Positions 58,250 through 59,681 of a DNA stretch of 62,658 bases are shown one piece after another. The notes under the pieces are model-generated. The model searched no databases. It was not told the origin of the DNA and was given only the letters and a program-made list of their open reading frames with translations. Every line of letters starts with the position of its first letter. The first letter of the stretch is position 1. The position numbers and the translations under genes were made by a program. The stretch is taken from NCBI GenBank assembly GCA_035314825.1, contig DATFYX010000069.1:1-62658 (forward strand). The letters run 5' to 3'. This DNA is from Candidatus Eremiobacteraceae bacterium. Its GTDB lineage: Bacteria; Vulcanimicrobiota; Vulcanimicrobiia; Eremiobacterales; Eremiobacteraceae.

Positions 58250-58735
58250 TTACCGGGAAACCATCTCTCGAATGCGTGGATGATCGCCCTCGACGGTCTT
58301 GATCCAACGCGCGAAGACCGGCACTTTGTGATTCACGCGATACAGGAAATAATAAGCGCTGATATCGCCGACGTACGAAAATCGGCGCCTTAGGTCGGCC
58401 GTCAATCCTTCGTACGTCTTGTGGGAACCCAGGTAGTTGCGAAATCCGCGATGCTCTTTGTCCAGATCGAGCATGGTCGCGGCGTTCGCAATCGTCGCCT
58501 GGATCTTCCGCTCGCTATGAAGGATGCCGGGCGTGGCCATGATGCGAGCGATATCCTTTGCGCGATACCTCGATACCTTACGCGGATCGAAATTATCGAA
58601 CGCCTTGCGCAACGGTTCCCACTGTCTGTCGATCGCCGCCCAGCTGAGCCCCGCCTGGAACACCGCGCGGCTCATCACCGCGAGGTAATCTGCGAGCGCA
58701 GGCTTGGCGATTCGCTCGTGTCCTATTTTCGGCAC
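58250..58735 (-). CDS. Tag-like DNA-3-methyladenine glycosylase, N-terminally short
   Basis: A 161-residue protein resembling the core of DNA-3-methyladenine glycosylase I: VFQAGLSWAAI, LRKAFDNFDPRKVSRY, GILHSERKIQATIANA and a C-terminal RRFSYVGDISAYYFLYRV. The family's N-terminal RCxW and YHDxEWG zinc/active-site region is absent. The Glu expected just before FQAGLSW is Ala (RAV). Activity is therefore doubtful. The start GTG 58733-58735 lies 10 bp after the end of a tRNA-Glu 3' fragment, so the original upstream sequence was replaced or was always the tRNA. The longer frame upstream translates through the tRNA fragment and is not real. Confidence 0.72.
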   Translation of the reverse strand: MPKIGHERIAKPALADYLAVMSRAVFQAGLSWAAIDRQWEPLRKAFDNFDPRKVSRYRAKDIARIMATPGILHSERKIQATIANAATMLDLDKEHRGFRNYLGSHKTYEGLTADLRRRFSYVGDISAYYFLYRVNHKVPVFARWIKTVEGDHPRIREMVSR

Positions 58736-58745
58736 CGTTGATCGA

Positions 58746-58792
58746 TGGTAGCCCCAAGGGAATTCGAATCCCTGTCTGCGCCTTGAGAGGGC
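58746..58792 (-). repeat. Duplicated 3' part of tRNA-Glu (attachment-site-like)
   Basis: 47 bases match 59493-59539 with one mismatch. The match runs from the anticodon stem through the T arm to the encoded CCA. Upstream of it no 5' tRNA half can be found, so this is not a second tRNA gene. It is the direct repeat that bounds the cassette. Confidence 0.88.
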
Positions 58793-58887
58793 TCGGCGGC
58801 TTTTTGGATAGGGCGTTTCCGGAGAATCCACCCCGCCTCGCGTTGTGAGTGTTTTCTCTCGGCCGGGCGTAGCCGATCGCTGCTCGC

Positions 58888-59463
58888 CTATTCCTGCCCT
58901 TTCCGCTCGACGGGCTCGACCGCCCTTGGCTCCTCGACGCGCATGCGTCGCGCCCCTCGCAGATAAGCACCATCTGGGTGACGCGTCTCGAAATCCTCGC
59001 ATAGCATCGCGAGATACTCAAAGTTCTCCAATAGAGCCGGCGCGTTTAGGCTCCGACGCCTGATCGCGATGACGGGCATCATCACGTTCCAACTCGAGAG
59101 AATCGGGCCCGAAAAGAGGTCGCACACGATTTCCTTGTCGATTATGCCGTACTTGCAAAATGCTCCCAAATTCTCAAATATGTTACCCACAAGATTGAGA
59201 CTCGCAAGGTCATCATCCAAGACCCTTTGCTCGATCCGGGGGAGAAACTGCGGTTCCTTCATGAGACGAGGAAACTCATTTTGAATGAAGCGCCTCGCGG
59301 CGCGGAATTCGGCCGACTCGATGACTTCCTGGACCCCGGTGATCGCGCTGATCTGATTGCTGCTCCGCAAGTGACGCAGCTGCGCGATGGCGGCAAACGC
59401 GGTAGCCGCAATCACGACAAAGGTGCCGACAGCGGCAATCGCACTTATCTGTTCTGGGCTCAT
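58888..59463 (-). CDS. DUF4760-like small membrane protein, cassette copy
   Basis: A 191-residue paralog of the protein encoded at 2074-2646. It has the same N-terminal hydrophobic segment ([23 protein letters not shown]) and the conserved HLRSSNQI, LNLVGNIFENLGAFCKYGI, VCDLFSGPILSSWN and LENFEYLA blocks. ATG 59461-59463 is only 29 bp after the tRNA-Glu CCA, so it may be transcribed from the tRNA promoter. There is no good Shine-Dalgarno sequence. It is the only gene between the two tRNA-Glu repeat copies. Function unknown. Confidence 0.82.
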   Translation of the reverse strand: MSPEQISAIAAVGTFVVIAATAFAAIAQLRHLRSSNQISAITGVQEVIESAEFRAARRFIQNEFPRLMKEPQFLPRIEQRVLDDDLASLNLVGNIFENLGAFCKYGIIDKEIVCDLFSGPILSSWNVMMPVIAIRRRSLNAPALLENFEYLAMLCEDFETRHPDGAYLRGARRMRVEEPRAVEPVERKGQE

Positions 59464-59492
59464 CGCATACGGTGTAAGACGGATTCTATAAG

Positions 59493-59568
59493 TGGTAGCC
59501 CCAAGGGAATTCGAATCCCTGTCTCCGCCTTGAGAGGGCGGCGTCCTAGGCCTCTAGACGATGGGGCC
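59493..59568 (-). tRNA. tRNA-Glu (CTC)
   Basis: A 76-nt cloverleaf on the minus strand. The acceptor is GGCCCCA paired with TGGGGCT, the anticodon loop CTCTCAA gives CTC, the T arm is AGGGATTCGAATTCCCT, and CCA is encoded. It follows tRNA-Gln by 37 bp in one transcript. Its 3' 47 bases are repeated at 58746-58792. Confidence 0.95.
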
Positions 59569-59605: not shown

Positions 59606-59681
59606 TGGCTCCCGGGCAAGGTTTCGAACCTCGAGTCTCCTGATTCAGAGTCAGGCGTGTTACCAGTTACACCACCCGGGA
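59606..59681 (-). tRNA. tRNA-Gln (CTG)
   Basis: A 76-nt cloverleaf on the minus strand. The acceptor is TCCCGGG with CCCGGGA, the discriminator is G and CCA is encoded. The anticodon stem-loop CCTGA-CTCTGAA-TCAGG gives CTG for Gln. The T arm is CGAGGTTCGAAACCTTG. First gene of the two-tRNA operon, directly behind a consensus promoter. Confidence 0.95.

Follow-up and report, generated by a model that had tools for sequence, protein, structure and literature searches.

How does a single small gene come to lie between the 3′ half of a tRNA-Glu gene and a second copy of that half, with no integrase near it? The question is raised by a locus in a contig of 62,658 nt, here referred to as the window, from a Candidatus Eremiobacteraceae bacterium. 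The host is a soil bacterium of the Eremiobacterota, a little-studied phylum for which few descriptions of mobile elements exist. The source assembly (genome G000) comprises 89 contigs and is 97% complete. The locus had been described in an initial annotation as a 747-bp single-gene cassette bounded by a 47-bp near-perfect repeat of the tRNA-Glu 3′ end, and these coordinates and the single open reading frame were found to be right.

Anatomy and genomic setting of the unit at tRNA-Glu(CUC)

The features of the unit and of its flank are listed in Table 1. The tRNA-Glu(CUC) gene is adjoined by a tRNA-Gln gene (59606-59681). The two repeats share 98% identity over 47 nt with a start-to-start distance of 747, and tRNA positions 30-76 are covered by the distal copy (BLAST E about 4e-16 within the 62.7-kb window). 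Due to the fact that no second tRNA was recognized by Rfam at the distal repeat, this copy is regarded as a 3′ half only, and it is taken to be the original 3′ half of tRNA-Glu, which was displaced. Between the repeats a single ORF is present, and no integrase was found near the unit. The unit is compact, with about 30 bp ahead of the gene and about 95 bp behind it. The encoded protein belongs to DUF4760 (PF15956, E 2e-14), and a long N-terminal helix followed by a helical domain is predicted for it. A few bases past the distal copy a Tag-like gene starts, the start position being approximate and inferred from homologues that align from query residues 6-9 on.

Table 1. Features of the unit at tRNA-Glu(CUC) and of its flank, with positions in the window.
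Feature	Position	Strand	Basis or remark
tRNA-Glu(CUC)	59493..59568	-	ARAGORN and Rfam; positions 30-76 form the proximal attachment repeat
Proximal repeat (tRNA 3′ half, anticodon stem-loop to CCA)	59493..59539	-	direct repeat
ACTTATA at tRNA end	59487..59493	-	same offset in the sibling unit at tRNA-Glu(UUC)
Single gene inside the unit, DUF4760, 191 aa	58888..59463	-	ORF list and PF15956 match
Inner arm adjoining the distal repeat	58793..58816	-	18/24 nt in common with the sibling unit only
Distal repeat (47-nt copy of tRNA-Glu 3′ half, 46/47)	58746..58792	-	direct repeat and BLAST
Tag-like (methyladenine glycosylase) gene	58250..58741	-	PF03352, E 8e-22; flank, outside the unit

The window region was matched in genomes of the same family, and the close matches of the unit protein are Candidatus Eremiobacterota records. 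The gene order in relatives is dapD, tRNA-Gln, tRNA-Glu, a variable stretch, a nucleotidyltransferase gene and uvrD. In G007 and G009 the nucleotidyltransferase gene follows within about 250 bp past tRNA-Glu(CUC), and in other relatives 1.9 to 4.4 kb of differing genes are found between the two. Because this intervening stretch differs among relatives, the 3′ side of tRNA-Glu(CUC) is considered a hotspot. The initial annotation had named an identical arrangement in all relatives as a refutation of its reading; the relatives differ at the site. It had also looked towards a relative in which tRNA-Glu is directly followed by the Tag-like gene, and no such relative was found. The Tag homologues of the relatives are positioned away from tRNA-Glu, and the Tag gene was rejected as a native neighbour of this tRNA on the same grounds. 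What stood of the expectation is that in two genera the next syntenic gene is close to tRNA-Glu(CUC). Beside the same tRNA of the congener G001 lies a broken DUF4760 remnant in opposite orientation.

Additional irregularities were observed at these tRNA genes. In G008 the tRNA-Glu/tRNA-Gln pair apparently has the reverse orientation with respect to dapD and the gene of the nucleotidyltransferase (L046 and L047 on contigs C23 and C87); next to dapD, the end of a contig carries a 44-nt copy of the 3′ half. In G001 the 3′ part of a tRNA-Gln is split from the rest (L026, contig C88, 9929-9973), with a full match on contig C28, which suggests a unit inserted in the tRNA-Gln of this congener.

A sibling unit and its empty site at tRNA-Glu(UUC)

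A second unit (L021) is present in the same genome at tRNA-Glu(UUC), where the 3′ half recurs without mismatch over 44 nt at a distance of 710 bp downstream and encloses one gene of 146 aa, which belongs to a family other than DUF4760. The corresponding empty site is found in the congeners G001 and G002, where CCA and then a terminator hairpin come directly after tRNA-Glu(UUC); this hairpin is preceded by the distal copy in G000. The G000 flanks joined across the insert gave a 289-nt match of 87% identity to G002 and G001, which extends through the tRNA, CCA and terminator. At the occupied site the tRNA adjacent to the insert has no CCA, and CCA is kept in the distal copy; for this reason the insert-adjacent 3′ half must have come with L021. 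Site-specific integration into a tRNA is expected to leave this pattern, by which the polarity of L021 is fixed. We infer the same polarity for the window unit.

The two units have common ends despite unrelated cargo genes. Directly inside the distal copy 18 of 24 nt are identical, and among about 790,000 windows in the fetched stretches of G000 this arm score was reached by one only, namely the unit itself. Moreover, the motif ACTTATA occurs just past the tRNA at equal offset in both; the end signature of these two units reads CCTATCCA..GCCGCCGAG together with ACTTATA. Outside these two units the full arm was found in none of 101 genomes, and a wider family with these ends would have no support from the genomes searched. 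A viral helper was rejected as well, since in IMG/VR no instance of the arm or of the pattern of the tRNA-Glu 3′ half was present, and attC-like single-strand folding of the distal end revealed nothing notable.

Units at other tRNA genes, recombinases and cargo

For the survey of further units 276 distinct tRNA genes were used, comprising those of G000, parts of G004, G006, G007, G014 and G019, and the tRNA-Glu loci of other genomes. Downstream copies of the 3′ end on the same strand, which are not other tRNAs, were detected for 12 of them (Glu, Ala, Pro, Gly, Val and Asp, in several genera), a rate that gives no fair estimate as the sample leans to tRNA-Glu and to loci fetched for partial copies. 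The upstream and opposite-strand controls in the 276 neighbourhoods yielded matches only where paralogous tRNA genes are neighbours in the locus, so that the downstream copies exceed what chance would give. The G+C content was lower than that of the context in 10 of 11 units.

Five copies, spread over different genera, are located 643-753 bp away from their tRNA: the window unit, L021, and units at tRNA-Ala (L024), tRNA-Glu (L050) and tRNA-Pro (L221). Each of these short units carries one gene or one toxin-antitoxin pair and no integrase. Vestiges of an integrase are absent from four of the five, including the window unit, and the weak match in L221 is probably due to chance. The cargo of L024 (G004) is again a DUF4760 gene, in reversed orientation; the expected recurrence of the cassette at other tRNAs was thus borne out for the gene family and not for its orientation. 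L050 carries a pair of ribbon-helix-helix and PemK/MazF-like genes, and L221 a frameshifted lipoprotein-like gene, the family of which is also found at tRNA-Glu in G013 and G009 (about six loci in 14 genomes, three of them at tRNAs). Longer units range from 1.3 to 5.7 kb, with degenerate distal copies in some; a 2.4-kb unit at tRNA-Gly of G006 contains, beside the tRNA, a C-terminal integrase stump (54 aa, 72% identical). Two contigs of G017 have an overlap of exactly 127 nt that stops a single base past tRNA-Glu, and one contig of the pair runs on into the L050 unit. Assemblers leave such overlaps where reads go on in two ways, as occupied and empty sites within one population would cause; the overlap is a hint of polymorphism, not proof.

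Several further loci were recorded. At a tRNA-Asp of G000 (L070, contig C88, 9454-11776) a 48-nt copy of the 3′ half lies 1.6 kb off with a HEAT-repeat protein gene in between, a similar terminator hairpin stands behind both copies, and a truncated integrase is located just past the unit. Two successive copies (42-43 nt) of the 3′ end of tRNA-Val(GAC) form a tandem array in G004 (L258, contig C3, 667-5966), in which no integrase was recognized. The 5′ half of a tRNA-Lys(CUU) in G000 (L065, contig C75, 12840-12878), identical over 39 nt to the full gene on contig C4, is followed by unrelated sequence and represents either a tRNA that was disrupted or the opposite side of an integration event.

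The recombinases of G000 are one Xer-like enzyme and two truncated tyrosine recombinases; neither an intact accessory recombinase nor a serine recombinase was found in this genome, so that the enzyme is not at hand in G000 now. Truncated integrases lie near tRNAs on contigs C44 and C88. The repeats of the Glu and Asp units start in the anticodon stem-loop, which is a usual crossover position of tyrosine recombinases in tRNA genes. On contig C44 (L068, 9036-9852) and in several relatives, tyrosine integrases were observed about 200 bp 5′ of a tRNA on the same strand, and the coordinates suggest this arrangement in at least four genomes.

DUF4760 is expanded in this bacterial family. Counts in G000 and 13 related genomes gave as many as 24 copies per genome, with 20 copies in G000, and the domain is absent from 14 control genomes. 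Most copies are situated away from tRNAs. The strong claim of DUF4760 as a tRNA-specific cargo was rejected, with 3 of 50 copies at most 1 kb downstream of a tRNA compared to 0.57 expected (P 0.02), and an assignment as known defence protein was rejected as well (PADLOC, E 0.037 only). Comparison of the fold with PDB gave EDS1-PAD4 proteins as best match, which is not significant (E 0.1). No relatives were found in IMG/VR and no match on plasmids or phages.

Origin of the unit and comparison with known systems

The window unit is very probably a site-specific insertion at a tRNA, whether it was mobilized in trans or left by the decay of an island. Integration at a tRNA without integrase, as proposed initially, is well supported by the empty site of L021, by the foreign composition and by common ends with different cargo. 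Partial tRNA copies can come from duplication, and a gene might be trapped by accident through tandem or partial tRNA duplication or through recombination between tRNA copies. This is very improbable here: the copies are 3′ ends on the same strand and downstream, the controls are clean, L021 is a precise insertion relative to the congeners, and the composition of the units is foreign. The distal copy is accordingly not the ordinary tRNA duplication that the initial annotation had regarded as a refutation. There is likewise only a very small chance of an artefact of metagenome assembly; the genome is fragmented and contigs of relatives break at tRNAs, but the window unit is embedded in a contig of 62.7 kb, and like units occur in several independent genomes.

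We give even chances to the window unit being a non-autonomous integrated element that arrived small and was moved by a recombinase from another element. A small circle with a single gene, a pair of short arms for the recombinase and a 3′ half copied from tRNA-Glu would have entered tRNA-Glu(CUC) through the action of a site-specific recombinase of another element, most likely a tyrosine recombinase. The crossover would be located inside the block between anticodon loop and T arm; the working tRNA would be rebuilt by the incoming 3′ half, and the displaced original 3′ half would become the distal repeat. Against this account speak the lack of an intact accessory recombinase in G000, the shared ends being found in no further genome of those searched, and the lineage-specific expansion of DUF4760, with most copies away from tRNAs. 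The close rival, with a probability somewhat below even, is a bigger integrase-bearing island at tRNA-Glu that lost all but its att repeats and one gene. Decay does occur, as indicated by the integrase stump in the G006 unit, which speaks against a small-unit origin. Additionally, the truncated integrases near tRNAs in G000, one of them just past the tRNA-Asp unit, the existence of the longer units, some with degenerate distal copies, and the description of CIMEs as decayed ICEs or IMEs (PMC5704250) are in line with decay. However, by decay the two units of G000 must each have shrunk to one intact gene and yet have kept the same two ends, and the window unit and three of the four other short units show no trace of an integrase; the compactness of the window unit also argues against decay. 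On account of the matching ends around different genes, of the compact build and of the size class, arrival as a small unit moved in trans is placed slightly ahead of decay. The mobilization in trans considered in the initial annotation is plausible.

That genes can enter the chromosome singly at tRNA genes without a recombinase of their own is documented by the empty site and the matched ends, and integrase-based island searches would miss such units. If the unit was moved in trans, it would represent a minimal gene-transfer unit of which ends and cargo are separately testable. A whole cassette economy at tRNA genes of Eremiobacterota, in which single-gene units of ~0.7 kb keep their ends constant, exchange their cargo and rely on recombinases that other elements supply in trans, appears unlikely; if true, it would be a tRNA-based counterpart of integron cassettes, overlooked by finders that require an integrase. 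Integron gene cassettes bring single genes in small mobile units, the ends of which are conserved. In contrast, the ends of the window unit are tRNA halves without notable single-strand folding, no integron was seen, and the recombinases at hand are only Xer-like or truncated, the integron type having been covered without a model of its own. The unit is also neither an ICE nor an IME, as its single gene leaves no room for an integrase together with relaxase or conjugation genes.

Tycheposons share the tRNA insertion site and the delivery of cargo into genomic islands, but are described as elements of 4-200 kb with a tyrosine recombinase (PMC10872708), whereas the window unit has 0.7 kb and no recombinase. 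Among the ssrA islands of Dehalococcoides 15 of 31 are without integration module and retain the ssrA repeats, next to which a conserved motif is found (PMC3146451); these resemble the window unit but differ in the tmRNA target, the likely serine recombinase of the family and the rdhA cargo. CIMEs, or cis-mobilizable elements, keep their att sites, have no integration or transfer genes and come from ICE or IME decay (PMC5704250). The window unit agrees with them in its attL/attR-like flanks (the 47-bp repeats, and the 44-bp repeats of L021 with its empty site) and in having one DUF4760 ORF only, whereas no ICE or IME ancestry is shown; no vestige is found within, and a longer unit of a relative has an integrase stump. 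In the additive flexible genomic island fGI-2 of 'Ca. Methylopumilus', units from 330 bp with one CDS upwards are bounded by direct repeats of the last 20 nt of tRNA-Lys and hold mostly unknown genes (PMC10872708), so that the window unit, contrary to what had been supposed, is not among the smallest known. In the Eremiobacterota, tRNA 3′-end repeats likewise surround strain-variable genes. In Methylophilaceae fGI-2 is confined to a single tRNA and a single island position, whereas the present units are spread over several tRNAs, have repeats of 40-48 nt and are mostly single; the tandem copies at tRNA-Val of G004 may represent repeated insertion at one site. In its working the window unit resembles a CIME or a unit of an additive island, and with published units down to 330 bp the kind is already known. 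The sibling insertion and similar ones in relatives show a recurrent, though not wholly new, route of gene gain by single genes; added here are the phylum, target tRNAs of several kinds, ends common to two units and an empty site.
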